DNA of 64,000 bases, taken from Rubripirellula amarantea (GTDB lineage Bacteria > Planctomycetota > Planctomycetia > Pirellulales > Pirellulaceae). The stretch is from assembly GCF_007859865.1 (NCBI RefSeq), contig NZ_SJPI01000003.1, positions 620,001-684,000 on the forward strand, read 5' to 3'. Of this stretch, positions 43,347 through 58,011 are shown in pieces. The notes beneath the pieces were generated by a model. The model had not been told where the DNA came from. It made no database searches and was given only the letters and a program-made list of their open reading frames with translations. Numbering within the stretch: position 1 is the first letter of the stretch; every line of letters starts with the position of its first letter. The translations under genes and the position numbers were made by a program.

Positions 43347-44855
43347 ATGCACGCAGCCAGTCGCAAGTCGCGAAGTGACCAGAAACAGGCGACGCGACCA
43401 CGCTATCGTCCAAGCCCGATCCACCGCTACCCGTCGGGTGATGCGTATCGACTTGGCCTGGGTCGTTCAGCACCGCGTAACGCTGTCGGTGATCGCTTAG
43501 CGAGAGAACTTGCAGTCCTGTCACTCGACGACGACCAACCCTCGGTCTACGTCTTCGTCCGCGCAATCGCCCGAGAGCTAAAGATCCGTTACTACCAGCG
43601 AACAACCCAAAAGACATACCTCGCCGCCATTCGCTCTCTGCTCCGGTGGCTCGGCCGACCGCCACACGTGCTCAATCGCGAACATGTACGAGCTTACATG
43701 GAATACCTCTATGACGGCCACCGCAGCGCATCCGATATGGGTGTGCAATTGGCGGCGATTCGATTGGCGTGGGACAAAATGTGTTACCGCGATGTGACGC
43801 TTGGTCTAGAAATTCCGCGCAAGAAACGCTCGCGACCGGTGATCATCAGCCGCAACGAGATCGTCAGGCTGCTTTGTGCCGCTCGATCCCGCCGCGATAC
43901 CTTGTTGATAGGTCTTATGTACGGAGCCGGACTTCGGGTAAGCGAGGTATCTCGATTAAGATGGCGGGATATTGATTTTGATCGTCAACAAATGTTCGTC
44001 GAGCAAGGCAAAGGGGCCGCAGACCGCCATGTCGGATTGCCTTTGCAATACCAACCGTTGCTACAAAAAATGATGCAGGGATGTCAAAGCGATGAGTTCG
44101 TCTTCGCGGGGGAAAGCCCCACCCGTCGCGCTGACCGACACATCAGCCCACGTACGGTCCAGCGTGCCGTGGCGACCGCGAGTGTGATCGCTGGGATTCA
44201 AAAGCAAGTCACGCCACACTCCCTGCGTCATGCGTTTGCGACTCATTCGTTTGAAGACGGTTGCGATATCAGACGCATTCAAAAGGTTCTCGGCCATGCC
44301 AGACTTGAAACAACTACGATCTACGTTCATGTCGCGAAATCACAAACTAATTTCGCCAGCCCATTGGACCGCTTGACCGGAGTGCACGCACCATCGAAAA
44401 ACGAGTCCGCACAACGTCAGATTGATAATCAATCTTCGGTTTCGCAACCTACATGCCAAGCGATTGCTACCGCCCCCACCCATTCGGTCGCCGCGTTAGC
44501 ACTGCATAGCCGTCGTCACCCCGATGCAGATGCGAATGAATATGCGCGCACCCGGCGAACTCAAATTGCGATTGAGATCAAAACGGCGAAGCGCCGCCAC
44601 TATCTACGCGGAACGATTGCTGAAATGCCGCGAGAAGGGTTTGTAACAATCGAATTGCCCGCAGCCGAAGAATGGGAGTCCACCATCGCGAAATTCCCCA
44701 AGCCCGTTCGTGAGCGTGTGCAATCGCCAGAGTTTTACCAGATTCTGCAGCGCGCGATCACGTCCCGGATGCTCAAAGAAGCGTCCAACGATACTAGTTC
44801 TCACCCCCTTCGCAATGTCAAGCAAGGGACGGATTGCCGAAGTCCGATCGACTAG
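43347..44855 (+). CDS. intI: IntI-related tyrosine recombinase (integron integrase) without the IntI-specific insertion
   Basis: 502 aa. The catalytic set is visible: Arg197 (GAGLRVSEV), Lys222, His291 and Arg294 (PHSLRHAFATH), His317 (LGHA) and Tyr326 (IYVHV). The stretch after the tyrosine ends SPLDRL, as in IntI proteins, and QRAVATASVIAG resembles the IntI helix before PHTLRH. However, Lys222 to His291 is 69 residues, matching XerC (about 68) rather than IntI1 (about 106), so the extra domain typical of IntI is missing. About 160 residues follow the catalytic domain, with no recognised motif. It reads towards the cassettes. Confidence 0.88.
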   Translation: MHAASRKSRSDQKQATRPRYRPSPIHRYPSGDAYRLGLGRSAPRNAVGDRLARELAVLSLDDDQPSVYVFVRAIARELKIRYYQRTTQKTYLAAIRSLLRWLGRPPHVLNREHVRAYMEYLYDGHRSASDMGVQLAAIRLAWDKMCYRDVTLGLEIPRKKRSRPVIISRNEIVRLLCAARSRRDTLLIGLMYGAGLRVSEVSRLRWRDIDFDRQQMFVEQGKGAADRHVGLPLQYQPLLQKMMQGCQSDEFVFAGESPTRRADRHISPRTVQRAVATASVIAGIQKQVTPHSLRHAFATHSFEDGCDIRRIQKVLGHARLETTTIYVHVAKSQTNFASPLDRLTGVHAPSKNESAQRQIDNQSSVSQPTCQAIATAPTHSVAALALHSRRHPDADANEYARTRRTQIAIEIKTAKRRHYLRGTIAEMPREGFVTIELPAAEEWESTIAKFPKPVRERVQSPEFYQILQRAITSRMLKEASNDTSSHPLRNVKQGTDCRSPID

Positions 44856-45158
44856 CCCAACGCGACACGATCTCTCACCAACTAGCTGATTCTCAAAGCT
44901 AGGTTTGGTAGGCACAAAGCCCCAAAGCGTAGAGCGATGCCCAGCATCGACCGAACGCTCTAGGATGCGCAGATGTTACGGGACAGGCGGCCGAATGTCA
45001 GCCTGATTCGCGAACGATATCTGAATGGATCACTCACCGAATAAGGCGAGTGTCATTAGAGCACGAGAAATTGCACACCGGCCGCGCACCAGCTAAGCTA
45101 GCTACACCGTGCACACCAACTCCCCCGCCACAGGCAGGGGGTGTCGCACAAAGTGTAT
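44856..45158. other. Region between integrase and first cassette (attI region), about 300 bp
   Basis: No gene is present. A hairpin (stem 45031-45038 with 45045-45052, one mismatch, loop GAATAA) could end integrase transcription, though no T-run follows. A G/C hairpin pairs CCCCCGCC at 45122-45129 with 45133-45141. Repeated TGCACACC-like words occur at about 45072 and 45110, and could be integrase binding sites. The right-hand part resembles one arm of an attC. Confidence 0.5.
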
Positions 45159-45165
45159 GTTGCAC
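45159..45165 (+). other. Recombination core before the first cassette (attI-type crossover)
   Basis: GTTGCAC lies at the boundary of the first cassette. The 12 bases from 45159 are the reverse complement of the 12 bases that end at the R'' box of the first attC (45565), which fixes the cassette boundary at 45159/45160. The preceding GGTGTCG-N12-GTT matches the right arm of the attC sites downstream. Confidence 0.7.
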
Positions 45166-45175
45166 GGCACTCCGC

Positions 45176-45547
45176 GTGAGTATCGCTTACCGACAATCTC
45201 GAATTCGCACTCTTGGCGCGCACGCCGCGCGCTATCGCACCCTTTACGTTTTTGCTGCAACTGCGTGGACAGTCTTTGCTGACGCATGCATTCTGAGTAT
45301 CTGCTTGGCTGAATCTCGTACGTCTTTCGGTGGTTGGTGTGGTACCTGTGTAGCTGAGGCGCAGTATTCACTGTACGTTGTAAATCCGCTTTTGCTCTGC
45401 ACGTCGATTCTTGCAACTTTGTTCGTTCGCCTGCTTGGCTCGCGCCTCTACCGTCTCGCCCGCATCTTCACAATTGCGTCCCTTGCGGTGATTGTCGCCC
45501 CCATCTGCACGGTCTTGTACGCAAGTTGCATCGAGAGTCTTCACTGA
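45176..45547 (+). CDS. Cassette 1: three-TM membrane protein
   Basis: About 123 aa from the GTG at 45176, 16 bp inside the cassette; the frame is open upstream to 45050, outside the cassette, so that start is unlikely. Three hydrophobic helices: about residues 25-48, 62-86 and 92-115. The first two are followed by Cys-rich loops. I do not recognise the family. The stop is 11 bp before the R'' box of the first attC. Confidence 0.6.
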   Translation: MSIAYRQSRIRTLGAHAARYRTLYVFAATAWTVFADACILSICLAESRTSFGGWCGTCVAEAQYSLYVVNPLLLCTSILATLFVRLLGSRLYRLARIFTIASLAVIVAPICTVLYASCIESLH

Positions 45548-45558
45548 TGCTCCGTGCC

Positions 45559-45695
45559 GTGCAACATGGTTTTTACGCTAGGCCTTCGGCACACCTTCCT
45601 TGTTTGGCGACGCGGGCTGGCCTTGGTACAATCTTCCGTAGTTCGGGCATCGCTCGCTTCGTTTAGGGCGGTGTCGTAAAAACCTTCCGTTATGT
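45559..45695 (+). repeat. attC site 1 (137 bp)
   Basis: R'' GTGCAAC, L'' CATGGTTTTTACG, R' GTTATGT. Inner mini-hairpin GCCTTCGGC. Promoter-like TTGGCG-N17-TACAAT. Confidence 0.93.
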
Positions 45696-45717
45696 GCCAC
45701 AGGTGATCGGTACTGCG

Positions 45718-46068
45718 ATGGACTACGCTGGCCCAATTGACCTCGACGCGTTGATTGACCTCGACGCGCTTGCAGATCGTGGCGCATCGCATTGGACGTT
45801 TCTCGCGTTCCCGTCACACAGCGTCAACGAACACGGGGTGCCATCCGACCCTGCCGCCCAGCGATACATTGCTGCGGTTCAATCTGCTGGCGTGCCCGTT
45901 GGCATCTGGCGCAATTCGCCCGTCGATGGCACTGCCTATGCTGCCGTCGCCCACGACACGATTCCCCAGCTTCACTCTTCGATTGAACGTCTATCTCAAT
46001 TCTCCGAATCGTTTGCCGCCGATTTGTCCGAACGATTGTTCCGCGGGTCCAGCGCGGGTGGCACATAA
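45718..46068 (+). CDS. Cassette 2: hypothetical protein
   Basis: 116 aa from the ATG at 45718 (an alternative GTG at 45694 adds eight residues). It opens DYAGPIDLDALIDLDALAD, a short direct repeat, and continues HWTFLAFPSHSVNEHG. The protein is soluble, without signal peptide. Family not recognised. Its TAA stop (46066-46068) lies within the R'' box ACATAAC of the next attC. Confidence 0.65.
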   Translation: MDYAGPIDLDALIDLDALADRGASHWTFLAFPSHSVNEHGVPSDPAAQRYIAAVQSAGVPVGIWRNSPVDGTAYAAVAHDTIPQLHSSIERLSQFSESFAADLSERLFRGSSAGGT

Positions 46069-46270
46069 CATGGTTTTTACGCTAGTCGCGGCTGTCGTCG
46101 TTGGAGAGTCGTTCGGTGGGGCACGTCGTTCGCTTCGGTAGATTTCCCTCTGGTGCAAACCCGCGATCACCTTGGCTCTTTCGCAACGGGCCCTCGCATT
46201 GGTACAATGTTTCTTTACTCAGAGTCACTCGCTTCGTTTAGGGCGGTGACGTAAAAACCTTCCGTTGTAC
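46063..46270 (+). repeat. attC site 2, long form (208 bp)
   Basis: R'' ACATAAC, R' GTTGTAC. The body is ~70 bp longer than most. It shares GTTGGAGA and CGCTTCGGT words with the other long site at 54623. Promoter-like TTCGCA-N17-TACAAT. The right arm reads GTGACG instead of GTGTCG. Confidence 0.9.
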
Positions 46271-46716
46271 GGCCCTACCGATGATTGAATTCCTGATCCG
46301 CCGCGACGATGGGCAGTGGTTCGATTTTCACTACGACCAGATTCCGGAGATGCTGCATCCATCCACGTTCGATTTCACCGTGGTGGACGGTTGGGGTACA
46401 CATCGCATTCGTGTGGGCGAGACCGACATCTCATTCTCTGACGAAGACCCCGGATTTCAGATCTGCTTCGAGGGCGACGGCATTGACGCGGACACCGCTG
46501 CCCAAATTGTCGCGGAGGTTGCGGCCAACATCACGTCCGTCACGGGTCAATCTCATCGCATAGTGGCCCTGTAGCTCACCGGGCCGTACAACATGGTTTT
46601 TACGCTAGGCCTGCGGCACACCTTCCATCTTTGTCAACGCGGGCTGGCCTTGGTACAATTTCTTATAGTTCAGACATCGCTCGCTTCGTTCAGGGCGGTG
46701 TCGTAAAAACCTTCCG
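46265..46716 (+). repeat. Duplicated cassette 3/14, copy A (452 bp)
   Basis: Matches 52555-53006 throughout as far as I can read. It contains one gene and its attC. Confidence 0.88.
46281..46574 (+). CDS. Cassette 3: small acidic protein, copy A
   Basis: 97 aa, starting MIEFLIRRDDGQWFDF. The middle (VGETDISFSDEDPGFQICFEG) is rich in Asp/Glu and beta strands. I do not recognise the family. The cassette 46265-46716 appears identical to 52555-53006 over all 452 bp, attC included. The ATG lies 11 bp after the R' core; no Shine-Dalgarno is visible. Confidence 0.75.
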   Translation: MIEFLIRRDDGQWFDFHYDQIPEMLHPSTFDFTVVDGWGTHRIRVGETDISFSDEDPGFQICFEGDGIDADTAAQIVAEVAANITSVTGQSHRIVAL

Positions 46717-46722
46717 TTAGGC
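46586..46722 (+). repeat. attC site 3 (137 bp)
   Basis: R'' GTACAAC, R' GTTAGGC. The mini-hairpin loop differs from most: GCCTGCGGC. Promoter-like TTGTCA at 46631 and TACAAT at 46654, 17 bp apart. Confidence 0.93.
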
Positions 46723-46733
46723 GACCTCAGTTA

Positions 46734-47261
46734 ATGGCAGTTCCAACCGTCGAACAACTGACCGACGCGGTTGTTGACGCTGCCGCGACTGCATTCCGCG
46801 AACTCTTCGCCACGGGCGAGACCTTCTACTACTGCGTGCTTATCACGACTGGCGACGCGCTACCCCCGTACATTGCGGCGTGGTCACATGAGTCGCTCGC
46901 CAACGCGGGTGATCCGGAGCTTGATCGCTGGCACTACGCTTCGTCACCATACCTCGACTTCGGTTCCCAACACTTTGCCCCGGTGCGTGATCTTTGGTTC
47001 GCTCGCCCTGCAATCGACACCGGTGACTGTCGCACCGAATACGATCTGCGGATGACTGCGCTTGAATCGGCCATGCTTCGTCTTGATGCAGCGGATGTCT
47101 TTGGTTCCGCTGACGCCCGGCAGCGACTCATGATTAACGTCGAGGTTGTACCGCCGGATCACACGAACACCGAGCGTGCAATACGACTCAATCCGCCTGA
47201 ATCAATCACGCAGTGGCTTGCCGAGGCTGCCGAACCACTCGATGATGGCACGGTCGCCTAA
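46734..47261 (+). CDS. Cassette 4: DUF4303-like protein
   Basis: 175 aa. The stretch FYYCVLITTGDALPPYIAAW, followed by WSHESLAN and DRWHYASSPYLDFGSQHF, fits the DUF4303 pattern as I know it; this match is by eye. The function is unknown. Some DUF4303 genes occur near toxin loci. The TAA stop lies in the R'' box GCCTAAC. Confidence 0.65.
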   Translation: MAVPTVEQLTDAVVDAAATAFRELFATGETFYYCVLITTGDALPPYIAAWSHESLANAGDPELDRWHYASSPYLDFGSQHFAPVRDLWFARPAIDTGDCRTEYDLRMTALESAMLRLDAADVFGSADARQRLMINVEVVPPDHTNTERAIRLNPPESITQWLAEAAEPLDDGTVA

Positions 47262-47391
47262 CATGGTTTTTACGCTAGGCCTTCGGCACACCTTCGTTGG
47301 TAGGCAACGGGCGCTGGCATTGGTACAATCTCTCGTGACTCAAACTCCACCGCTTCGGTAACGGCGGTGTCGTAAAAACCTTCCGTTGGGC
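47256..47391 (+). repeat. attC site 4 (136 bp)
   Basis: R'' GCCTAAC, R' GTTGGGC. Body type with TAGGCAACGGGCGCTGGCAT; promoter-like TAGGCA-N17-TACAAT. Confidence 0.93.
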
Positions 47392-47402
47392 GACCTACCG
47401 TA

Positions 47403-47819
47403 ATGGAATATCTAGGTCATCCGTACTTCGATGCGTCTGACCGAGCCGATTGGCTCGAACTGCCTATTGACCATGATGGCAACCTTATTCCAAGTGACAT
47501 CGGCGACTCGTTGGATACCGTCATACGGCGTGACTTTGACCGCATTACCAAGCTCGTTCTCGATCGCCTGACAAAATGTTCGCCCGATGAATGGCTCGCC
47601 GAATGTCCACACGCACTGCTCAACGACGTTTCGTACTGCCCTGTTGGCGACGGCAGCGCTCGCATCTTTGTCGAATACGCGTTTCGCCCCAGCCTCACAG
47701 AGAACTCCTACCACACTGACTCGTGGTGGGCTATCGTCCTTTGTCCGTACGTGACCGGTAATCCGTACACGGACGCAATGGACTACGTGATCGAGCACTT
47801 TGGATGGTCGGTTCAATAG
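47403..47819 (+). CDS. Cassette 5: hypothetical protein
   Basis: 138 aa. It begins MEYLGHPYFDASDRADWLEL, has a helical region with IRRDFDRITKLVLDRL, and a Cys-containing C-terminal half (WWAIVLCPYVTG). No TM or signal peptide. Family not recognised. The stop is 13 bp before the next R'' box. Confidence 0.65.
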   Translation: MEYLGHPYFDASDRADWLELPIDHDGNLIPSDIGDSLDTVIRRDFDRITKLVLDRLTKCSPDEWLAECPHALLNDVSYCPVGDGSARIFVEYAFRPSLTENSYHTDSWWAIVLCPYVTGNPYTDAMDYVIEHFGWSVQ

Positions 47820-47832
47820 CAGGGCACCGGTC

Positions 47833-47969
47833 GCCCAACATGGTTTTTACGCTAGGCCTTCGGCACACCGCTGTCGTTTGTTCAAGCCTCCCTCTGCTGG
47901 TAGAATCTTCCGTAATTCAGACATCGCTCGCTTCGGTAACGGCGGTGTCGTAAAAACCTTCCGTTGGCC
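47833..47969 (+). repeat. attC site 5 (137 bp)
   Basis: R'' GCCCAAC, R' GTTGGCC. Body with TTCAAGCCTCCCTCTG; promoter-like TTGTTC-N17-TAGAAT. Confidence 0.93.
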
Positions 47970-47980
47970 GACCTACCCGA

Positions 47981-48286
47981 ATGGACACAATACGCTGGAT
48001 CGTCGTTTGTGTCGTTTTGTTACCTGCTGCGGTTTACACCACCTTCAACTTTGGCCTCGCTGTACGCAACCTTATCTTCTACGCCGATCGGGGGCCGTCA
48101 TGGATTCCGCTGGTCGGATTCCTCGCTGCTATCGTCGGCCTGTTGGCCGTTCCCAAGAACGACTCCACGGTTTCCGGGGTCGCTGTGTTCGCATTCGCAA
48201 CATTCATTCTATTCGACGTCTCGTACATTGCCGTTGGCGTCTTCAACGCGGTTCGGTCACGCCTGACCGGACGCCCGCCGTCGTGA
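47981..48286 (+). CDS. Cassette 6: three-TM membrane protein
   Basis: 101 aa starting MDTIRWIVVCVVLLPAAVYT. Hydrophobic helices at about residues 4-26, 41-58 and 64-88. The basic C-terminus (VRSRLTGRPPS) is probably cytosolic. Family not recognised. An overlapping frame from 47964 is not supported by start or length. Confidence 0.65.
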   Translation: MDTIRWIVVCVVLLPAAVYTTFNFGLAVRNLIFYADRGPSWIPLVGFLAAIVGLLAVPKNDSTVSGVAVFAFATFILFDVSYIAVGVFNAVRSRLTGRPPS

Positions 48287-48297
48287 TGCAGACGGTC

Positions 48298-48433
48298 GGC
48301 CAACATGGTTTTTACGCTAGGCCTTCGGCACACCTTCGTTGGTAGGCAACGGGCGCTGGCATTGGTACAATTTCTCGTGATTCAAACTCCACCGCTTCGT
48401 TTGGGGCGGTGTCGTAAAAACCTTCCGTTGGCC
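48298..48433 (+). repeat. attC site 6 (136 bp)
   Basis: R'' GGCCAAC, R' GTTGGCC, so its own arms pair perfectly. Promoter-like TAGGCA-N17-TACAAT. Confidence 0.93.
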
Positions 48434-48456
48434 GACCCTAGGTTTTCCTAAACGCC

Positions 48457-48891
48457 ATGTCGCTGGATGAATACCGCTACCTCTGGGACGGATCGCAACC
48501 CGGCTGGACGCTTCATCGCGTTAACCAGATCGACTGGACTGTCACGTTCCACTTCGATGCAACGGGGCCAACCGCCCGCGAGGTGTCGGACATGCGCACC
48601 CTACTGGACTGCTTTCGTGATCTACCGATGTCTGCCGTATGGGCTCAGCTCCGTGGTCGCTCGTCCTACACAACAACTGATTCGGTTGGCAACCTTGAGA
48701 TGCGTTGGCTCGTCGATGCCGCTGACCGCGCGGGCCTCCGGACGACCCCAAACCCGACGGATTCCGGCGGGCTCCTTCCGGTGCATGTCGATGGACACGC
48801 GCTGATAATCGAGGACGAGAAGCTAGCTGCCGAGGTCACGCAATTGATGCTCGATGCGGGTGTGCCCGCCACTGATGTCCACGTCGATTGA
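48457..48891 (+). CDS. Cassette 7: hypothetical protein
   Basis: 144 aa. It begins MSLDEYRYLWDGSQPGWTLH and has two strand/helix units, the second ending LAAEVTQLMLDAGVPATDVH. That tail resembles a small alpha/beta fold of the type that pairs a helix with a final strand. No catalytic motif was seen. Family not recognised. Confidence 0.65.
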   Translation: MSLDEYRYLWDGSQPGWTLHRVNQIDWTVTFHFDATGPTAREVSDMRTLLDCFRDLPMSAVWAQLRGRSSYTTTDSVGNLEMRWLVDAADRAGLRTTPNPTDSGGLLPVHVDGHALIIEDEKLAAEVTQLMLDAGVPATDVHVD

Positions 48892-48904
48892 TGCGCTCCG
48901 GGTC

Positions 48905-49040
48905 GGCCAACATGGTTTTTACGCTAGGCCTTCGGCACACCTTCGTTGGTAGGCAACGGGCGTTGGCATTGGTACAATTTCTGGTGATTCAAACTCCACC
49001 GCTTCGGTAACGGCGGTGTCGTAAAAACCTTCCGTTACGC
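48905..49040 (+). repeat. attC site 7 (136 bp)
   Basis: R'' GGCCAAC, R' GTTACGC. Promoter-like TAGGCA-N17-TACAAT; body type as in site 4. Confidence 0.93.
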
Positions 49041-49057
49041 GACCCAGTCGTCTCTTT

Positions 49058-49627
49058 ATGCAACGTTTTCACCAGCTCATATTCGTCGCCTCACTCTTGG
49101 CGCTTAGCTGGTTCGCAATGATGGCCGTCCACGAATTCGGCCACGTTATCGGCGCACTGACCACTGGTGGCGCCGTTGAGCGTGTTGTGCTGCATCCACT
49201 GACGATCTCCCGTACTGACGTTTCCCCGAACCCAAATCCTTCGATCGTCGTTTGGCTTGGCCCAATCCTCGGCTGCATCATCCCTGCTGCTATCTGGGGG
49301 TGCATCCCACACTGCTACGCCTCGGCGCGCAATATCGCGGCGTTCTTTGCCGGTTTTTGCCTGCTCGCAAATGGCGCGTACATCGCTATCGGCTCCTTTG
49401 ACCGTGTCGGTGACTGTGGCGTCATGCTTCAGCACGGATCACCTCTCTGGACGCTTCTTGCTTTCGGCTTGGTCACAATCCCACTTGGCTTCTACTTGTG
49501 GCATCGTCTCGGCTCCGTCAGGCAATTCATCGCCGACCCATCGTTGGTCGATCCGATCGTGGCCTACGCTCTACTTGGGGCTTTGTTGGTGATGCTGGCA
49601 CTCGAACTCACGATTTCACCGCGGTAG
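49058..49627 (+). CDS. Cassette 8: M50-like membrane zinc metallopeptidase
   Basis: 189 aa. HEFGH at residues 25-29 sits in the first TM helix, as in site-2-type intramembrane proteases. A later GPILG follows at the next hydrophobic segment. About five hydrophobic helices are visible. The second zinc ligand (typically NxxPxxxxDG) is not seen, so activity is uncertain. It is the longest single-domain product of the array. Confidence 0.72.
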   Translation: MQRFHQLIFVASLLALSWFAMMAVHEFGHVIGALTTGGAVERVVLHPLTISRTDVSPNPNPSIVVWLGPILGCIIPAAIWGCIPHCYASARNIAAFFAGFCLLANGAYIAIGSFDRVGDCGVMLQHGSPLWTLLAFGLVTIPLGFYLWHRLGSVRQFIADPSLVDPIVAYALLGALLVMLALELTISPR

Positions 49628-49631
49628 GGTC

Positions 49632-49768
49632 GCGTAACATGGTTTTTACGCTAGGCCTTCGGCACACCTTCCATCTTTGTCAACGCGGGCTGGCCTTGGT
49701 ACAATCTTTCGTAGTTCAGGCATCACTCGCTTCGTTCAGGGCGGTGTCGTAAAAACCTTCCGTTGTAC
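49632..49768 (+). repeat. attC site 8 (137 bp)
   Basis: R'' GCGTAAC, R' GTTGTAC. Promoter-like TTGTCA-N17-TACAAT, the same as in site 3. Confidence 0.93.
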
Positions 49769-49797
49769 GCCAGAGACCTCAACCTACTTGGCTGGCC

Positions 49798-50253
49798 ATG
49801 CCGCTTGACTCAATAAACTTCAACGCGTTCACTTTCGACAAGTACTTTTGGGAGGGCAAGCACGCAATTCCATGGCTCGCTGCGGTTGTCGAAATCGTAA
49901 TTGACGGCGACCCTACACGTATCCCTGACACGCAACGTTCAATACTCGCTTTCGTCCACGACCTGCCTAGCTCGACCCGCGAAACGCTTCAGCAGTACAT
50001 TTACGACGAATATCAATCCGAAATCTACGGCGCTTACTCCGGTGGCGATGATGTCACACCTCCGATTTCTGGGCCAACGGACATCTGGAACCTTATTTCT
50101 GAACCGGGCGTCGCAATCTCCGACATTGCAGAACCCGAACGTCACTTCGTTGTCTCGTTTGAGTGCGTATGGGATCCCGAACACGGACTCTCAATTCTAT
50201 TCAATGATCGCGGTGAACCCGTAGACATCGGCGGGCAGGGCGACCACTTCTAG
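49798..50253 (+). CDS. Cassette 9: hypothetical protein, possibly DUF6985-like
   Basis: 151 aa. The C-terminal part RHFVVSFECVWDPEHGLSIL followed by DRGEPVDIGG looks like proteins I recall as DUF6985, but this is a weak match by eye. Acidic, soluble, no signal peptide. Confidence 0.5.
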   Translation: MPLDSINFNAFTFDKYFWEGKHAIPWLAAVVEIVIDGDPTRIPDTQRSILAFVHDLPSSTRETLQQYIYDEYQSEIYGAYSGGDDVTPPISGPTDIWNLISEPGVAISDIAEPERHFVVSFECVWDPEHGLSILFNDRGEPVDIGGQGDHF

Positions 50254-50255
50254 GC

Positions 50256-50391
50256 GTACAACATGGTTTTTACGCTAGGCCTTCGGCACACCTTCGTTGG
50301 TAGGCAACGGGCGCTGGCATTGGTACACTCTTTCGTGATTCAAACTCCACCGCTTCGCTTGGGGCGGTGTCGTAAAAACCTTCCGTTATGT
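50256..50391 (+). repeat. attC site 9 (136 bp)
   Basis: R'' GTACAAC, R' GTTATGT. Promoter-like -10 is TACACT; -35 TAGGCA. Confidence 0.93.
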
Positions 50392-50405
50392 GACCGAGGC
50401 GCTCG

Positions 50406-50708
50406 ATGGATCGTAAACGCGTTATCTACATCGACGTCGATGACACGTTGATCCGCACTGTTGGCACCACGCAGATTCCCATGCCCGCCAGCGCGGACTA
50501 CGTTCGCCGGATGCACTCGGCTGGCCACGCTCTCTACTGCTGGTCGCGCGGCGGTGGCGACTACGCGCGTGACGTCGCGACATCGCTCGGTATCGCGGAC
50601 TGTTTCGTTGCGTTCTTGCCCAAACCGGACGTCTGCCTTGACGATCGCGGCGACAAACTGCTCGACTATTGTGACGTGATCCTGCCCGGCAACGCGTCGA
50701 ACCACTGA
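50406..50708 (+). CDS. Cassette 10: HAD-like phosphatase
   Basis: 100 aa. HAD motif I is DVDDT (nucleophile Asp10, acid Asp12), followed by the motif II-like YCWSRGG and LPKPDVCLDD, which could provide motif III Lys and motif IV Asp. The protein is shorter than most HAD enzymes, with almost no cap. Substrate unknown. Confidence 0.7.
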   Translation: MDRKRVIYIDVDDTLIRTVGTTQIPMPASADYVRRMHSAGHALYCWSRGGGDYARDVATSLGIADCFVAFLPKPDVCLDDRGDKLLDYCDVILPGNASNH

Positions 50709-50740
50709 CCGCATCCAATGCTCGCCCCATGCTCGCGGTC

Positions 50741-50876
50741 ACATAACATGGTTTTTACGCTAGGCCTTCGGCACACCTTCGATGGTAGGCAACGGGCGCT
50801 CGCATTGGTATACTTTTTCGTGATTCAAACTCCACCGCTTCGTTCGGGGCGGTGTCGTAAAAACCTTCCGTTAGCG
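50741..50876 (+). repeat. attC site 10 (136 bp)
   Basis: R'' ACATAAC, R' GTTAGCG. Promoter-like TAGGCA-N17-TATACT. Confidence 0.93.
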
Positions 50877-50920
50877 GACCCTAGGTTTTGGTAATTCCAT
50901 CGCTCATTGCAGCAACGCGT

Positions 50921-51226
50921 ATGACCGGAAACATCATCGCGGCGATCGTACTCCTCGTCGTCTGTGTTGCGGTCCTTCGATACCTGCGCCGAAGTTCATC
51001 GGACCGACAACGCGGCCTTCCGTGGATCGCGCTCATTGCGGGGCCTGCGTTTGCGGCATTCTACGTTTGGATCGACTACAACTGGATTCAGCCGTACAAC
51101 TATCGAACGTGGGATGACGCGATCCACTCAATCATTCCCGTGATGATCGTTGGTGCGTTCGGCGGATGCGTCGGGGCCGCGTCTATCTGGATTGGAAATC
51201 GTCTCACAGGGCAACGGGTCCGCTAA
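50921..51226 (+). CDS. Cassette 11: three-TM membrane protein
   Basis: 101 aa from the ATG at 50921; a TTG at 50888, nearer the cassette end, is also possible. Hydrophobic helices at about residues 5-21, 36-50 and 76-97. The loop WIDYNWIQPYNYRTW is aromatic. Its TAA stop lies in the R'' box CGCTAAC. Family not recognised. Confidence 0.6.
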   Translation: MTGNIIAAIVLLVVCVAVLRYLRRSSSDRQRGLPWIALIAGPAFAAFYVWIDYNWIQPYNYRTWDDAIHSIIPVMIVGAFGGCVGAASIWIGNRLTGQRVR

Positions 51227-51357
51227 CATGGTTTTTACGCTAGGCCTTCGGCACACCTTCCATGTTTGGCAACGCGGGCTGGCCTTGGTATAATCTTTCT
51301 TGGTTCAGGCGTCGCTCGCTTCGTTCAGGGCGGTGTCGTAAAAACCTTCCGTTGGCA
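51221..51357 (+). repeat. attC site 11 (137 bp)
   Basis: R'' CGCTAAC, R' GTTGGCA. It has the strongest promoter-like element of the array. Confidence 0.93.
51266..51294 (+). promoter_or_regulatory. Promoter-like element inside attC 11
   Basis: TTGGCA (51266-51271), 17 bp, TATAAT (51289-51294), close to the sigma-70 consensus, facing the next cassette gene at 51372. Not shown to be active. Confidence 0.5.
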
Positions 51358-51371
51358 GACACAGATCAATC

Positions 51372-51824
51372 ATGGGCACAACGTTTGTCAGCATTGGTGA
51401 TCACGGATTCTGGATGCGTGACGGTGTCCTCGAACTCTGGCTTCGATTGCTGGCTCTGCACCTCGAAGACCCTGCTGATGATTCGTCCCCTTGTGATGCA
51501 ATCCGCTCTCAATGGTTGCTCGCATCTCGCGGATACTTCAACGGTTGCGTTCCACTTGATCTTGAATCTGATATTTCAACTGACGCTGGCCGCAAACTGA
51601 TACTCGACGCCATCGCATCTCTTCGTAAATCACTCGAAAGCGCACCTGAAACGCTCGATCATCACGTACTGAATCTTCTCGGCTTTTCCGGGCCTTTCAG
51701 CGGCAATCCTGACACTTGGCGGCTTCTTGATGTGGCGGACGCGTTCGTTGACCTCATCGAGGGGCGTGTTAACGGTACCGCAAAAACTACCGAATGGATG
51801 CCCGGCAGCGCCAAACGTAATTGA
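51372..51824 (+). CDS. Cassette 12: hypothetical protein
   Basis: 150 aa. It starts MGTTFVSIGDHGFWMRDGVL; mostly helical, with AIASLRKSLESAPETLDHHV. No signal peptide or TM. Family not recognised. Stop is 24 bp before the next R'' box. Confidence 0.62.
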   Translation: MGTTFVSIGDHGFWMRDGVLELWLRLLALHLEDPADDSSPCDAIRSQWLLASRGYFNGCVPLDLESDISTDAGRKLILDAIASLRKSLESAPETLDHHVLNLLGFSGPFSGNPDTWRLLDVADAFVDLIEGRVNGTAKTTEWMPGSAKRN

Positions 51825-51847
51825 AAATCTACCGGCAATTCAGTGTC

Positions 51848-51984
51848 TGCCAACATGGTTTTTACGCTAGGCCTTCGGCACACCTTCCAACTTTGTCAAC
51901 GCGGGCTGGCCTTGGTACAATCATTCGTAGTTCAGACATCGTTCGCTTCGTTTTGGGCGGTGTCGTAAAAACCTTCCGTTGTGC
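51848..51984 (+). repeat. attC site 12 (137 bp)
   Basis: R'' TGCCAAC, R' GTTGTGC. Promoter-like TTGTCA-N17-TACAAT. Confidence 0.93.
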
Positions 51985-52554
51985 GGCAACTCCCGTATGG
52001 AAATCATCCGCATCACCGATCAGCAAAACGGCACTCTCACTGAGTTTTACGCTCGCGAGAGCGATGGTTACCGCAATGGTGGTTCGGACACCAACGCTGA
52101 CATGCTCGCAAACATGGTTCGCCTGCTCGACGCGCTTGCTGACGCTGATGGTCCAACACTCTTTGGCGTTACGTCACACTTCCGTTTGCGCTTGCTGAAC
52201 ATTGACGACTATCGTGCCCCAACGGTTGCCACAATCCAACCTGTGATCGACGGGCCAAAGACATTCGGCTTCGACATCGCCTATCCTATGCCCAACAGCG
52301 ACTCACCATGGGACAATGCGTGGGTTCGTGGGCTTGCATTCGACGCTGAAATGGCCGTCCCAATGGTGCTTTCGGCCATCCGTCACTCAGCAAACATCGC
52401 GTAGCCCATGCTCGTGTTGCCGCACAACATGGTTTTTACGCTGAGGCCCTTCGGGCACACCTTCCCGCTTTGGCAACACGGGCTGGCCTTGGTACAATTT
52501 CCGTTGTTCAGGCATCGCTCGCTTCGTTCAGGGCGGTGTCGTAAAAACCTTCCG
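51979..52554 (+). repeat. Duplicated cassette 13/27, copy A (576 bp)
   Basis: Matches 59713-60288 throughout by eye, including its attC. Confidence 0.88.
51997..52404 (+). CDS. Cassette 13: hypothetical protein, copy A
   Basis: 135 aa from the ATG at 51997 (a TTG at 51979 lies in the R' core). Starts MEIIRITDQQNGTLTEFYAR; it looks like an alpha/beta protein with a C-terminal hydrophobic end (MAVPMVLSAIRHSANIA). Family not recognised. The second copy is at 59731. Confidence 0.72.
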   Translation: MEIIRITDQQNGTLTEFYARESDGYRNGGSDTNADMLANMVRLLDALADADGPTLFGVTSHFRLRLLNIDDYRAPTVATIQPVIDGPKTFGFDIAYPMPNSDSPWDNAWVRGLAFDAEMAVPMVLSAIRHSANIA

Positions 52555-52560
52555 TTGTAC
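52422..52560 (+). repeat. attC site 13 (139 bp)
   Basis: R'' GCACAAC, R' GTTGTAC. The mini-hairpin stem is extended to 4 bp (GCCCTTCGGGC). Promoter-like TTGGCA-N17-TACAAT. Confidence 0.93.
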
Positions 52561-52570
52561 GGCCCTACCG

Positions 52571-52864
52571 ATGATTGAATTCCTGATCCGCCGCGACGAT
52601 GGGCAGTGGTTCGATTTTCACTACGACCAGATTCCGGAGATGCTGCATCCATCCACGTTCGATTTCACCGTGGTGGACGGTTGGGGTACACATCGCATTC
52701 GTGTGGGCGAGACCGACATCTCATTCTCTGACGAAGACCCCGGATTTCAGATCTGCTTCGAGGGCGACGGCATTGACGCGGACACCGCTGCCCAAATTGT
52801 CGCGGAGGTTGCGGCCAACATCACGTCCGTCACGGGTCAATCTCATCGCATAGTGGCCCTGTAG
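52571..52864 (+). CDS. Cassette 14: small acidic protein, copy B
   Basis: 97 aa, the same protein as the one at 46281. It directly follows the first copy of the other duplicated cassette, so both duplicated types are adjacent here. Confidence 0.75.
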   Translation: MIEFLIRRDDGQWFDFHYDQIPEMLHPSTFDFTVVDGWGTHRIRVGETDISFSDEDPGFQICFEGDGIDADTAAQIVAEVAANITSVTGQSHRIVAL

Positions 52865-52875
52865 CTCACCGGGCC

Positions 52876-53012
52876 GTACAACATGGTTTTTACGCTAGGC
52901 CTGCGGCACACCTTCCATCTTTGTCAACGCGGGCTGGCCTTGGTACAATTTCTTATAGTTCAGACATCGCTCGCTTCGTTCAGGGCGGTGTCGTAAAAAC
53001 CTTCCGTTGGGC
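52876..53012 (+). repeat. attC site 14 (137 bp)
   Basis: Same body as site 3; R'' GTACAAC, but R' is GTTGGGC because the next cassette differs. Confidence 0.93.
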
Positions 53013-53039
53013 GACTCAGGCTAATCGTTTCCGTAACCC

Positions 53040-53414
53040 ATGAATGTCGCTGACGAACTCGAACTCGCCCGCAAGCTTGCCTCGAAATGGCAGCTCAACG
53101 TCCCAGAACGCAATTCGCTACCTGCTGCGGGTCTTGCGGCGTCCATGTTGGTTCAGGCGATCCGTGAAATTCTAGCCAAATCGCCGTGCTACCCTGCTGA
53201 CTGGAATCCGGACGTCGCGAACTACGAAGGTGTCGTTATCACCTCAACCGCAACCGGCTTTCGCACCCACACTCGCCACGAAATCGGCTATCAACGTTTC
53301 TCTGACGCAACGGTGGCCGACGTGGATGCCCTCGACGATGCAGTACGGGCACTGGTGTCCCACGTTTTCTCACTCCACAATATTGACGGAATCCCGTTGG
53401 ACTGGACACGTTAA
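53040..53414 (+). CDS. Cassette 15: hypothetical protein
   Basis: 124 aa. It starts MNVADELELARKLASKW and is helical, with a beta stretch VANYEGVVITSTATGF, and helix-rich end DALDDAVRALVSHVF. No motif recognised. Confidence 0.62.
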   Translation: MNVADELELARKLASKWQLNVPERNSLPAAGLAASMLVQAIREILAKSPCYPADWNPDVANYEGVVITSTATGFRTHTRHEIGYQRFSDATVADVDALDDAVRALVSHVFSLHNIDGIPLDWTR

Positions 53415-53429
53415 ACCCGCTTCAGAGTC

Positions 53430-53567
53430 GCCCAACATGGTTTTTACGCTGAGGCCTTCGGCACACCTTGGCTCTTTGGCAACGGGCCATGGCCTTGGTA
53501 CAATTTCGCCTAGTTCATGCATCGCCCGCTTCGTTCAGGGCGGTGTCGTAAAAACCTTCCGTTAGGC
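53430..53567 (+). repeat. attC site 15 (138 bp)
   Basis: R'' GCCCAAC, R' GTTAGGC. Promoter-like TTGGCA-N17-TACAAT. An ATG within this site (53517) is in frame with the next ORF. Confidence 0.93.
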
Positions 53568-53576
53568 GACCTACCG

Positions 53577-53999
53577 ATAACTGAATACAACGACGAATAC
53601 CCGACTTGCGAACGGACCTACGCAACGCTGCGCATCTACGCCGACACGCTTTCACCTGAAGAAATCACATCGTTACTAGGTGTCGAACCTACTAAATCAC
53701 AACCTGCCGAGTCTCGCCCCAAGGGCGTTCGAGACGTTCCCGCCGGCTGGTTTCTTTCGTCCGACGGCATTCTCGATTCATGCGACGTCCGACGGCACAT
53801 TGACTGGCTCATCAACAAACTCCTTGACTCTCACGACGGCCTAAAGACTATCCGAGCTTCCGGTGGCCGCGCCGACATTTCCTGCTTCTGGGTCTCCGCA
53901 GGGGGTCACGGCGGACCGTCGATTTGGCCGCACCAAATGTCCTCGTTGGGTTCGCTCGGCCTCGAACTGTGGTTTGATGTTTACCTCGGTGGTGAGTGA
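53577..53999 (+). CDS. Cassette 16: DUF4279-like protein with no standard start in the cassette
   Basis: About 141 aa counted from the ATA at 53577. The sequence YATLRIYADTLSPEEITSLL and later GWFLSSDG and VRRHIDWLINKLLD fit DUF4279 by eye. The frame inside the cassette has no ATG, GTG or TTG before this conserved part. The frame is open through the upstream attC to an ATG at 53517, so translation may begin in attC 15, or an ATA may be used. Function unknown. Confidence 0.65.
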   Translation: MTEYNDEYPTCERTYATLRIYADTLSPEEITSLLGVEPTKSQPAESRPKGVRDVPAGWFLSSDGILDSCDVRRHIDWLINKLLDSHDGLKTIRASGGRADISCFWVSAGGHGGPSIWPHQMSSLGSLGLELWFDVYLGGE

Positions 54000-54005
54000 C
54001 CGGTC

Positions 54006-54141
54006 GCCTAACATGGTTTTTACGCTAGGCCTTCGGCACACCGCTGCCGTTTGTTTAAGCCTCCCTCTGGTGGTAGAATCTTTCGCAGTTCAGCATCGCT
54101 CGCTTCGCTTAGGGCGGTGTCGTAAAAACCTTCCGTTAGGC
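54006..54141 (+). repeat. attC site 16 (136 bp)
   Basis: R'' GCCTAAC, R' GTTAGGC, so its arms are exact complements. Promoter-like TTGTTT-N17-TAGAAT. Confidence 0.93.
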
Positions 54142-54148
54142 GACCTAG

Positions 54149-54628
54149 ATGAACCCAAAGGCAGACCGTGATTGCCCGAAATGCGGAACCACCTTCGGTT
54201 CCGTTATCGACTACGGCGTCTGCCCCAACTGCAACACCAAGTTCTACGCCTCACCGACACACATCGCGCTCGCTGGTCGCCTTGGGGCGTGTTCCGGCGA
54301 CAAACTTCTGATCGCAATTGCGGCGTTTCACTCTGTCCCCGTTTTGCTCACGCTTGACCAACCGATCTGTGACTCGACCCGTAAACTGATTCCTGAATCT
54401 ACGGCTCGCGAATTTCGCTTGATCCCCGTGGTTGTCGATGACCTTGTGCGTATCGCGGTTCCCGATCCGCTCGACGAACGACTCTTCGATACTCTCACCT
54501 CGCTTCTTGGCGACTTCCCGTCGTTCGCCGTTGCACGTGACTACGACATCCGTCGCCGTATCAACGAATCCTACGGTTGCATTCCGTCCGACACGATGGA
54601 CTTCACTCCGGGGCGGCCGGTCGCCTAA
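54149..54628 (+). CDS. Cassette 17: zinc-ribbon protein
   Basis: 159 aa. C9-x2-C12 and C25-x2-C28 form a zinc ribbon at the N-terminus (CPKCG...CPNCN). The rest has a beta/alpha layout with a hydrophobic core (LLIAIAAFHSVPVLLTL). Role unknown. ATG is 8 bp after the core. The TAA stop lies in the R'' box GCCTAAC. Confidence 0.7.
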   Translation: MNPKADRDCPKCGTTFGSVIDYGVCPNCNTKFYASPTHIALAGRLGACSGDKLLIAIAAFHSVPVLLTLDQPICDSTRKLIPESTAREFRLIPVVVDDLVRIAVPDPLDERLFDTLTSLLGDFPSFAVARDYDIRRRINESYGCIPSDTMDFTPGRPVA

Positions 54629-54829
54629 CATGGTTTTTACGCTAGGCCGCTCTCCGTTGGAGAATCCTTCGTCCATGAACGTCGATCGCTTCGGTGGCGT
54701 TTTGCCTCGATGGAAACGGCGGCACACCCTCGCTCTTTGTTCAAGCTGCGATCCTTTGGTAAACTGTTTGGTGATTCGACACTTGTTCGCTCCGTTCGGG
54801 GCGGGTGTCGTAAAAACCTTCCGTTGTGC
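54623..54829 (+). repeat. attC site 17, long form (207 bp)
   Basis: R'' GCCTAAC, R' GTTGTGC. It contains the inner palindrome TCTCCGTTGGAGA in place of the usual mini-hairpin, and a promoter-like TTGTTC-N17-TAAACT. Confidence 0.9.
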
Positions 54830-54846
54830 GGCCCTAGATCAATCTG

Positions 54847-55119
54847 ATGCAAACCGTTGAACTGATCGACCGTGTGACCTCTGAGCTTGACGATTGGCTT
54901 GCAGCCAATCCCGATCATCCCCTCGTCGATGATTCTCCTTGGTGGCCGAATCTCCGTGCGAAGATTCAAGCAATGAAACAAATCACCAACGACTCGGCGG
55001 CGCTTTCTCGCGCGTACGGTACGGTCATGCACTTGATCGTTGACAGCGGGCCGGGCTGCGATATCGCCCCATCTTTGGACGCTCTTGGTCGGGTGGTTTC
55101 GCGTGGTTCAAACTGCTAA
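54847..55119 (+). CDS. Cassette 18: small hypothetical protein
   Basis: 90 aa, ATG at 54847. It begins MQTVELIDRVTSELDDWL, followed by ANPDHPLVDDSPWWPNL; probably helical and acidic. Family not recognised. Confidence 0.6.
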   Translation: MQTVELIDRVTSELDDWLAANPDHPLVDDSPWWPNLRAKIQAMKQITNDSAALSRAYGTVMHLIVDSGPGCDIAPSLDALGRVVSRGSNC

Positions 55120-55136
55120 TACGACGCTGCCGGGCC

Positions 55137-55272
55137 GCACAACATGGTTTTTACGCTAGGCCTTCGGCACACCTTCGTTGGTACGCAACGGGCGCTGGCA
55201 TTGGTACAATCTCTCGTGATTCAAACTCCACCGCTTCGGTAACGGCGGTGTCGTAAAAACCTTCCGTTGGGC
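55137..55272 (+). repeat. attC site 18 (136 bp)
   Basis: R'' GCACAAC, R' GTTGGGC. Promoter-like TACGCA-N17-TACAAT. Confidence 0.93.
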
Positions 55273-55287
55273 GACCTACTCAATCAA

Positions 55288-55668
55288 ATGGAACGCGACG
55301 AACTGATACTCGCACACGAATCTGGCTTCGTTCGTTCGTTCCTCATTCGCGAGCGACGTGACCGATACCTGTCTCAACTGCAACTTCCAAAAAAGCGCGG
55401 AACGCTTCTTGATCGCCTAAACCACCGCTTCCACCGCGATCTCGACGATCGCCACATTTGCGATTCGCCGACACTGCCGCCCCTCGACACGCTTTGCTAC
55501 ATCATCGCATCGGAAGACAAACTGGATGGCAACTTTGTCCCCGCTTCCGATGTGCCTGACTTGCTCGCATCGGCCGCATTTGGCATTGTCGTCTCCTACA
55601 TTCCGGGCAAACTCGCTGCCTACAAGGACGAGGCGCCATCGAACACGATTTGGCTCCAGCGCCCGTAG
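55288..55668 (+). CDS. Cassette 19: hypothetical protein
   Basis: 126 aa from the ATG at 55288. N-terminal charged helix (LIRERRDRYLSQLQLPKKRG), then a hydrophobic C-terminal half (SAAFGIVVSYIPGKLA). Family not recognised. Stop is 3 bp before the R'' box region. Confidence 0.62.
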   Translation: MERDELILAHESGFVRSFLIRERRDRYLSQLQLPKKRGTLLDRLNHRFHRDLDDRHICDSPTLPPLDTLCYIIASEDKLDGNFVPASDVPDLLASAAFGIVVSYIPGKLAAYKDEAPSNTIWLQRP

Positions 55669-55671
55669 GTC

Positions 55672-55808
55672 GCCCAACATGGTTTTTACGCTAGGCCTTC
55701 GGCACACCGCTGTCGTTTGTTCAAGCCTCCCTCCGTTGGTACAATTTCCGGTAGTTCAGACATCGTTCGCTTCGTTTAGGGCGGTGTCGTAAAAACCTTC
55801 CGTTGTGC
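55672..55808 (+). repeat. attC site 19 (137 bp)
   Basis: R'' GCCCAAC, R' GTTGTGC. Promoter-like TTGTTC-N17-TACAAT. Confidence 0.93.
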
Positions 55809-55814
55809 GGCTCA

Positions 55815-56138
55815 ATGAAACGAAAACGCGACTTTGAACGACGTAAGGATCACCGGAAGCAACTCGATAAGGCCACGGCACTCGCAATCGCTGTCGAAGA
55901 AGGACTGCCTCTCGCCGAATCTGTTCGTGGCGTCCCATACTCCTCAACGCCGGTTTCGATTAGCCGAGTCGAAATCGGCTGGCTGGTGCAATTTGCGCCG
56001 ACTTCGCACATTGATGCTGACGGACGCAAAGTCTTCAACGTGCAATACATCGTCGATGATCGCGACCGTCGACTTCATCCGGTCGGAACCTTTGGTGCGC
56101 GTCGTATCGTCGAGGAGATCCTATACCGGCGTGGCTAA
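55815..56138 (+). CDS. Cassette 20: basic hypothetical protein
   Basis: 107 aa from the ATG at 55815. The first 20 residues (MKRKRDFERRKDHRKQL) are strongly basic and may bind nucleic acid. A beta stretch VEIGWLVQFAPTSHIDADG follows. Family not recognised. Confidence 0.62.
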   Translation: MKRKRDFERRKDHRKQLDKATALAIAVEEGLPLAESVRGVPYSSTPVSISRVEIGWLVQFAPTSHIDADGRKVFNVQYIVDDRDRRLHPVGTFGARRIVEEILYRRG

Positions 56139-56158
56139 CCCGAATTGTGGCGAGAGCC

Positions 56159-56294
56159 GCACAACATGGTTTTTACGCTAGGCCTTCGGCACACCTTCGC
56201 ACTTTGGCAACGTGCGTTGGCTTTGGTACAATTTCCGTAGTTCAGACATCGTTCGCTTCGTTCAGGGCGGTGTCGTAAAAACCTTCCGTTAGCG
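56159..56294 (+). repeat. attC site 20 (136 bp)
   Basis: R'' GCACAAC, R' GTTAGCG. Promoter-like TTGGCA-N17-TACAAT. Confidence 0.93.
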
Positions 56295-56309
56295 GACCCT
56301 AGCGTTTTG

Positions 56310-56612
56310 ATGATTCGAGCCTTTTCGATTCTCACGGTGCTGCTTTCCGTGGGTTGCTCGCCTTCCAACATTGAATCCCCATCTAAATCGAACGCTGCCA
56401 TGACATTGCCCACAGATCGTCCGGCGCCTGGTGAAATCGCAGAGGCCAAACTGAATCCCGGTGGTTGGGTGTATCGCATCGTTGGTGACTACGGTCCTGA
56501 CGATGCCGTGCCGCCCGAAGCAATCGCCGGCGCTTGGCAGGTTGGCGATGATGGTGTAATAGTCGGCGATTTCAAACCAAACGACAACTACAAACCTCCA
56601 GCTGAACGGTGA
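56310..56612 (+). CDS. Cassette 21: lipoprotein
   Basis: 100 aa from the ATG at 56310. The signal peptide ends with LSVGC, a lipobox with Cys at residue 16. The mature part (about 84 aa) has a Tyr/Pro-rich C-terminus (VGDFKPNDNYKPPAER). Probably anchored in a membrane. Family not recognised. Confidence 0.72.
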   Translation: MIRAFSILTVLLSVGCSPSNIESPSKSNAAMTLPTDRPAPGEIAEAKLNPGGWVYRIVGDYGPDDAVPPEAIAGAWQVGDDGVIVGDFKPNDNYKPPAER

Positions 56613-56623
56613 TGGTCCGGGTC

Positions 56624-56763
56624 CGCTAACATGGTTTTTACGCAGAGGCCCTGCGGGCACACCTTCCATGTTTGGCAACGCGGGCTGGCATTGGTATGAT
56701 CTCTCGTAGTTCGGGCATCGTCCGCTTCGTTCAGGGCGGTGTCGTAAAAACCTTCCGTTAGGC
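56624..56763 (+). repeat. attC site 21 (140 bp)
   Basis: R'' CGCTAAC, R' GTTAGGC. Mini-hairpin GCCCTGCGGGC, a second compensated variant. Promoter-like TTGGCA-N17-TATGAT. Confidence 0.92.
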
Positions 56764-56779
56764 GACCTCATCCAATCCA

Positions 56780-57229
56780 ATGGAACACCTTCTAACCAGC
56801 TCGCGTGGTCAGGACGTTTTCCACATTTGCCTGACTTCACCGTACTCCCTTGATCGTCCGCCATTTGCCGGCGCGGATTTCGTTGTCCTCATCATTAACA
56901 ACGACCCAGATATTTCTGCCGACGACCAATACGCACTCAGCCTTGCACTTGTGCGCGCGGGATGCCGCTATGCTGTTTGCATTGGCCACAATTGCTCAAC
57001 TTGGGACGACTCCGTCGACTACGCCAACATGGAGGTCGACCCCGAACTAACTGACTCCAAATTCGTGATGACAACGTGGCACGAGAGCGATACTCCAGAC
57101 CAGATTGCAAACTTCTTCCTCAACTGCACGACTTTTGACGACAACGTATTCACAAACTTCCTGATTCTGTCTGTCGGGCCAAACGATAAACTGTTGGCCG
57201 ACATCACACGCCAGTGCACGGTCGCCTAA
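56780..57229 (+). CDS. Cassette 22: hypothetical protein
   Basis: 149 aa. A hydrophobic beta strand FVVLIINNDP, then helices, and CRYAVCIGHNCSTWDD, which has Cys-rich character. No catalytic motif. Family not recognised. TAA stop in R'' box GCCTAAC. Confidence 0.65.
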   Translation: MEHLLTSSRGQDVFHICLTSPYSLDRPPFAGADFVVLIINNDPDISADDQYALSLALVRAGCRYAVCIGHNCSTWDDSVDYANMEVDPELTDSKFVMTTWHESDTPDQIANFFLNCTTFDDNVFTNFLILSVGPNDKLLADITRQCTVA

Positions 57230-57359
57230 CATGGTTTTTACGCTAGGCCTTCGGCACACCTTCGTTCGTTGTTCAAGCCTCGCTGGGGTGGTAAACTTAT
57301 CAATAGTTCAAGCCGTTTCCTGAAATCAGGGGCGGTGTCGTAAAAACCTTCCGTTGCAC
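57224..57359 (+). repeat. attC site 22 (136 bp)
   Basis: R'' GCCTAAC, R' GTTGCAC. The right arm differs most from the other sites (CCTGAAATCAGG inner word). Promoter-like TTGTTC-N17-TAAACT. Confidence 0.92.
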
Positions 57360-57375
57360 GACGCAGGTCAATCAA

Positions 57376-57840: not shown

Positions 57841-57863
57841 GACCGTTCTGGCACTTCAGCGTC

Positions 57864-58000: not shown

Positions 58001-58011
58001 GTCACAGTCGA

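Follow-up and report, generated by a model that had tools for sequence, protein, structure and literature searches.

A cassette array beside a tyrosine recombinase without the IntI-specific insertion: a probable integron-like system in Rubripirellula amarantea

The recombinase gene, attI and the cassette array

The window, that is, the whole 64,000-nucleotide stretch of DNA analysed here, corresponds to positions 620001-684000 of contig C3 in a genome of 6.9 Mb. It contains the gene of a tyrosine recombinase, P0001, an attI site behind this gene and a long array of cassettes, with the following features.

43347..44855, + strand: gene of the integrase P0001 (502 aa), which lacks the IntI-specific insertion (I2); conserved N-terminal stretch, core-binding and catalytic domains, C-terminal extension
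43557..44375, + strand: core of the tyrosine recombinase, residues 71-343; the IntI insertion is missing from the K222-H291 interval
44496..44780, + strand: conserved C-terminal domain of about 90 residues (384-478)
45113..45144: inverted repeat directly before the attI core, read from the sequence; similar repeats in several relatives
45140..45166, + strand: attI (TGTCG...G^TT), crossover at 45159/45160 (303 bases behind the gene), with 12 bases that match the complement of R'' in attC 1
45160..61532, + strand: array of 29 cassettes of 443-742 bp
45554..45700, + strand: attC 1 of 29, from R'' arm to R' arm
Starts of the AAC of R'', + strand, attC 1-10: 45563, 46067, 46590, 47260, 47837, 48302, 48909, 49636, 50260, 50745
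The same, + strand, attC 11-20: 51225, 51852, 52426, 52880, 53434, 54010, 54627, 55141, 55676, 56163
The same, + strand, attC 21-29: 56628, 57228, 57868, 58500, 59081, 59587, 60160, 60663, 61404
46058..46275, + strand: attC 2, long form, with an 85-nt extrahelical element
46265..46716, + strand: cassette 3; the same 452 bp recur as cassette 14 (52555-53006)
51979..52554, + strand: cassette 13; the same 576 bp recur as cassette 27 (59713-60288)
62237..62264, + strand: degenerate L'-R' half, possibly a 30th attC, at the array end

Profile searches identified P0001 as a tyrosine recombinase (PF00589, E 2.6e-39), and the residues R197, K222, H291, R294, H317 and Y326, which we take to be the catalytic ones from established knowledge of these enzymes, were invariant in all 11 aligned members of its family. 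The distance from K222 to H291 is 69 residues, which bears out the sequence-only reading in its claim of a spacing like that of XerC rather than IntI1. In a common alignment, the same distance was 65-72 residues in all 14 rows of the I2-less family, 73 in both Xer proteins of the same genome and 64-82 in 33 of 33 other tyrosine recombinases, against 106-107 in all 22 canonical IntIs, IntI1 included; INTI_L083 (a wrong ORF) and PIR_L022 (a relative truncated N-terminally) are left out of these counts. Both the integron integrase model TIGR02249 and the IntI4 chain (2a3v) matched P0001 in two blocks with a break exactly at the IntI insertion, the IntI4 alignment skipping IntI4 residues 181-238 against residues 243-262 of P0001, and XerA-like and XerC-like chains aligned straight through this region. 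The alignments revealed no insertion of IntI size elsewhere between residues 71 and 343, so that a relocated insertion within the core was rejected and the proposed absence of the insertion stands.

The scores of P0001 fell below the cut-offs of all the relevant models, with 181 bits against 265 for TIGR02249, 146 against 335 for XerC and 140 against 330 for XerD; the best NCBIfam score came from the XerA-type model NF040815, at 183 bits against 220. The tail motif SPLDRL, which had been taken as IntI-like, proved not to be specific to IntI, SPLDxL being the consensus of 35 rows that include no canonical IntI. About 175 residues follow Tyr326, and the figure of about 160 residues without a recognised domain, formerly counted from the tyrosine, applies to the part after SPLDRL. 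Within this part, residues 384-478 turned out to be conserved among the relatives (13 rows); they matched no Pfam family in the 11 members searched and no PDB sequence (best E 0.22).

A TGTCG-type attI was found at 8 of 11 loci, namely the window and 7 of the 10 others, and it lies 208-331 bases behind the gene at the other loci of the same orientation. The exceptions are L049, which has none, L052, where the candidate is weak, and L058, where it resembles an attC end. The integrase gene runs in the direction of the cassettes in the window and at 8 of the 11 loci of relatives; at L049, L054 and L055 it is located on the opposite strand, and the family therefore occurs in both orientations.

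The attC sites of the array are 128-132 or about 200 bases long, attC 17 (54627) being the other long-form site of the window. The complement of each R'' was compared with the R' sequence at the start of its own cassette. The match averaged 11.4 bases over 28 cassettes. Other pairings gave 4.3 and the two arms of a single site, in their array arrangement, 4.7, and none of 10,000 shuffles reached the observed value (shuffle maximum 6.6). This complementarity within the own cassette places the crossover at G^TT, and hence that of attI at 45159/45160, and a chance repeat array was rejected on account of its cassette-wise nature. Across 17 stretches, the own-cassette match reached at least 8 in 120 of 156 cassettes, with low values of 0.0-5.8 in L054, L058, L102 and L111 (two of them with one value each). 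The locus accordingly combines a recombinase gene beside attI, a cassette array, unit cassettes, the G^TT crossover and the R''-R' match by which an integron system is recognised.

The identity within the two cassette pairs, 3 with 14 and 13 with 27, covers the whole length of the cassettes and ends at the crossover points; it extends further only through letters common to the attC sites, by 15-23 bases before and 2-4 bases after the duplicates. Judged from the sequence, these pairs imply a trace of whole-cassette exchange and thus past activity of the system. As for the contents of the array, two cassette genes encode proteins with DUF4303 (46734-47261) and DUF6985 (49798-50253). The other cassette genes scanned gave no Pfam match above the cut-off (8 proteins, one with a weak Peptidase_M50B match). 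In cassette 29, a minus-strand ORF (60801-61124) resembles by eye a ParE/RelE-type toxin of a toxin-antitoxin pair. Neither an Rfam match at the gathering threshold nor an ARAGORN tRNA was obtained in the window.

Structure of the attC sites

The bottom strands of eight sites were folded in the circular form. All eight were predicted to form an R arm of 11-12 bp, an unpaired spacer of 2 + 4 nt and an L arm of 10 bp. In the seven short-form sites, the predicted fold continues with a side hairpin of 3 bp and then a stem of 5 bp, and long-form site 2 carries a larger branched element in the position of the side hairpin. The sites hence display a hairpin, an unpaired spacer and an extrahelical feature on the R''-L'' arm, as integron attC sites do, the feature here being the side hairpin; the single extrahelical G (and T) in or after the L'' box, which marks classical attC sites, is absent.

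Statistics were collected on 174 sites from 17 stretches, whose likeness in sequence is partly due to selection since they were picked with a motif. The L arm was complementary at 10 of 10 positions in 142 of them. A short extrahelical segment was present in 141 of the 174 sites and ended in a hairpin with a 3-nt loop in 135 of these 141; a long segment of 77-86 nt was present in 20, of which 15 have at least 5 bp in the base stem (shuffled mean 0.16), and the remaining 13 sites fitted neither form. Compensatory variants of the side hairpin were observed, including GCCC/GGGC, TCGC/GCGA, TCCC/GGGA and CCCC/GGGG, as well as CCGCGGC/GCCGCGG versus CCACGGC/GCCGTGG. When the 3' arms of the short hairpin were redealt 1000 times, a mean of 111 and a maximum of 115 of 141 still paired, compared with 116 observed; the short side hairpin shows weak covariation, as its sequence hardly varies and the dealing test is near saturation.

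Stronger evidence came from genome G024, in which four sites with other L-arm letters and the same 2/4 spacer were found, where 0.05 were expected from shuffles; none was found in 19 canonical-IntI neighbourhoods. Three of the four carry the side hairpin and one a 10-nt bulge. These sites lie beside broken family genes (L279, L280, L281 and L286), and the diversity of this site type may go well beyond the motif applied here.

The gene family and its linkage to the sites

The 11 members aligned over their full length have in common an N-terminal stretch (HRYxDGxPYRxAxGRxAPR), the core and the C-terminal domain of about 90 residues. Named members come from Rubripirellula obstinata, the planctomycetes K23_9 and CA13, Rhodopirellula solitaria, R. 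sallentina and R. europaea; further ones are from R. rubra (at a contig edge), three planctomycete MAGs and one MAG labelled Deltaproteobacteria. The last, L113, is a member with the C-terminal domain from a groundwater MAG, and possibly reflects a transfer beyond Planctomycetota or a mislabelled bin. In a phylum-wide search, at least 4 of 392 genomes matched at E up to 1e-60, a count that is a lower bound with 4 candidates scored per genome. The two full-length matches were those of the window's own genome and of G452 (another family), which has one site pair (up to 3 mismatches) 2.8 kb downstream. A viral or plasmid origin of the gene was rejected, the best match in viral contigs having 34% identity and plasmid matches staying below 60% identity in the best 5000 records (at most 38.6% among the matches listed). 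A related simple tyrosine recombinase occurs in at least 10 near-identical copies in a single genome (G019:C1), which suggests a mobile element.

The phylogeny was inferred from 71 rows with the insertion columns left out. Two separate clades emerged, one with the 14 rows of the family and one with the 22 IntI rows, each with 100/100 support. The earlier view of P0001 as an IntI-like integrase holds in so far as the protein heads a real attI/attC array, with a linkage that recurs across genomes; P0001 itself is not an IntI, as indicated by the 181 bits against 265 and by a placement in the tree beside the IntI clade rather than inside it. A decayed IntI was likewise rejected, given the intact catalytic residues and the family's own clade with a conserved C-terminal domain. 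It is conceivable that the insertion was present in a true IntI ancestor and was lost on the way to the family, instead of never having existed in its lineage: grouping the family with IntI in one clade was not rejected (p-AU 0.445, compared with 0.392 for the family with the archaeal group), and TIGR02249 matches all 11 family members, P0001 under its cut-off. Since the IntI rows make up one clade that excludes the family, the tree shows no loss from inside the sampled IntIs, and in the best tree the family lies nearer to a large group of other simple recombinases, with a value of 67/70 that counts as no support. We regard such a loss as unlikely.

Analysis of the neighbourhoods revealed that the gene family and the sites are linked across species. 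Besides the window, 12 of 13 family loci carry window-type attC sites beside the gene, and at the exception, L051, the sequence ends 300 bases past the gene. No such sites were detected in the short flanks examined of the members L110 and L113, and none in paired form at the 70 non-family loci scanned. Among 149 Pirellulaceae genomes, the C-terminal domain was found in 19, the attC pattern in 30 and both in 18, so that the pattern occurs in 18 of the 19 genomes with the domain versus 12 of the 130 without it; the reversed pattern gave one match in each of 4 genomes. The 12 genomes with the pattern and without the domain have 1-5 matches each. Three genomes of one genus, G067, G134 and G144, contain 2-5 sites that carry AACATGGTTTTTACGCA or a close variant of it, and nothing of the C-terminal domain was found in them. 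When broken copies were included, 23 of the 29 C-terminal-domain matches examined (30 in all) lay within 4 kb of a window-type site; of the other six, four are the copies in G024 with the divergent sites and two are at contig edges. Broken family genes were also found adjoining the seemingly orphan arrays in G013, G106 and G076.

Contig C2 of the window's genome harbours a canonical IntI, P0002, with the insertion present and 422.8 bits for TIGR02249.

G000:C2:743203-744150 (L060:12837-14195): canonical IntI of 452 aa, with a small array within about 3.5 kb

P0002 is divergent from this small array, whose classical attC sites pair over 8 bp in the R arms and have an L stem interrupted by single-base bulges; five of the six real sites fold in this way and one does not. 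One genome is thus equipped with two kinds of integrase and two kinds of site. On the same contig, a lone window-type attC is located at C2:650317-650333 (- strand), with a 132-aa integrase fragment about 5 kb away (C2:645257-645562, - strand).

Proposed mechanism and comparison with known systems

These results lead us to propose, with a probability of about 0.75, that the window contains an integron-like cassette system whose integrase is a tyrosine recombinase other than IntI, the most likely cassette partner being an attC site in the form of a folded single strand. P0001 is likely to be the integrase of the array. It would insert circular cassettes at the attI behind its own gene by recombination at G^TT. 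The attC of the cassette would fold into a 12-bp R arm, an unpaired 2/4 spacer and a perfect 10-bp L arm, from which the side hairpin would project to give a three-way junction. By this mechanism, the side hairpin would choose the strand and keep one active site of each pair silent, and the C-terminal domain of the family would bind the side hairpin in place of the I2 helix. In classical integrons, as described in passages of PMC2727003 and PMC7790495, the choice of strand is set by the extrahelical bases of the R''-L'' arm, which the I2 helix docks. The side hairpin occupies the same arm as these bases, and both I2 and the single extrahelical bases are absent here; it is plausible that the hairpin replaces the bases and is read by the C-terminal domain.

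A folded strand is the likely substrate because the letters of the R arm vary freely and nevertheless stay complementary over about 130 bases. The I2-less integrase might conversely act on double-stranded sites of the array, as Xer proteins do on dif, with the inverted repeats as a by-product. The likeness of the P0001 core to XerA and XerC would suit such a reaction, as would arm lengths of about 12 bp (R) and 10 bp (L), which are those of an ordinary core site; the arms of dif are 11 bp long. Recognition of a double strand needs no complementarity between R arms, so that the R-arm letters, which differ between cassettes and still match a partner at a distance of about 130 bases or of a whole cassette, count against this reading, as does the preservation of the side hairpin in sites of different sequence. 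We judge it decidedly improbable. It is very improbable that the canonical IntI of contig C2 serves the array in trans while its I2-less neighbour has another job, for even though this enzyme resides in the same genome and IntI accepts sites of differing sequence by their structure (passages of PMC2727003), it has its own array of different sites, window-type sites were found in none of 19 canonical-IntI neighbourhoods (16 of them in 10 genomes that also carry the family) as against the 12 of 13 further family loci, and G013, G106 and G115 carry arrays with no canonical IntI at E up to 1e-40 (an absence that is unsure in these draft assemblies).

With P0001 as the probable integrase of the array, the question arises of what the locus says about the insertion. 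It had been anticipated that an enzyme working without I2 would change the picture of how attC is recognised. The array indeed appears to have an integrase without I2; its sites, however, differ from the classical ones as well, and since enzyme and sites differ together, the insertion is not shown to be dispensable for classical attC. We would give even odds to the broader idea that folded-strand integron recombination arose or persisted without I2, in a lineage that uses a C-terminal domain and a three-way-junction attC, either as a second origin or as a surviving earlier design.

According to passages of PMC7790495, integron integrases alone possess I2 and recombine single strands, and IntI1 loses its function when I2 is removed. 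The 2021 survey of tyrosine recombinases states, in the relevant passage, that the insertion is not fully conserved in the integron-like subgroup, yet essential for integron function (PMC8138268). Passages of PMC9668308 and PMC2426708 indicate that IntegronFinder and a 2008 survey, respectively, select integrases by the additional domain; systems of the present kind would therefore be missed or at best filed as arrays without integrase, which makes I2-less systems a blind spot in integron searches. Full-text searches of open-licence PMC papers brought up no attC array headed by an integrase that lacks the additional domain, the sole related statement being that of PMC8138268. A natural I2-less integrase beside working-looking arrays, in genomes with ordinary integrons, makes the question of integrase origin testable, and if our reading is true, integron-like machines exist in more than one natural design. 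We know of no intermediates that document the origin of the first integrase.

The insertion-less members noticed in the integron-like subgroup of the 2021 survey are similar to the family studied here, but in the passages of the survey concerned they are not tied to arrays, a special attC or a C-terminal domain (PMC8138268). XerA/XerC-type and IS91-associated simple recombinases share a core without insertion (28-38% identity) and differ in that none among the rows compared has such a C-terminal domain. In Treponema integrons, the integrase is likewise transcribed toward attI and along the cassette direction (passages of PMC3607928); their attC is described there with a protruding G, however, and unlike them, three loci of the present family have the usual opposite orientation. 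Close parallels exist with the IntI integrons, comprising classes 1-5 and the sedentary chromosomal ones, which likewise possess a tyrosine recombinase gene, an attI with G^TT, small co-oriented cassettes, attC sites of the form R''-L''...L'-R', cassette-wise R complementarity and an extrahelical feature on the R''-L'' arm. The system described here differs from them by the lack of I2, a separate clade, the C-terminal domain and a 12-bp R arm, and by sites that carry a side hairpin instead of single extrahelical bases in the L arm. In view of this comparison with prior work, we class the locus as an integron-like system with a non-IntI integrase rather than as an IntI integron.
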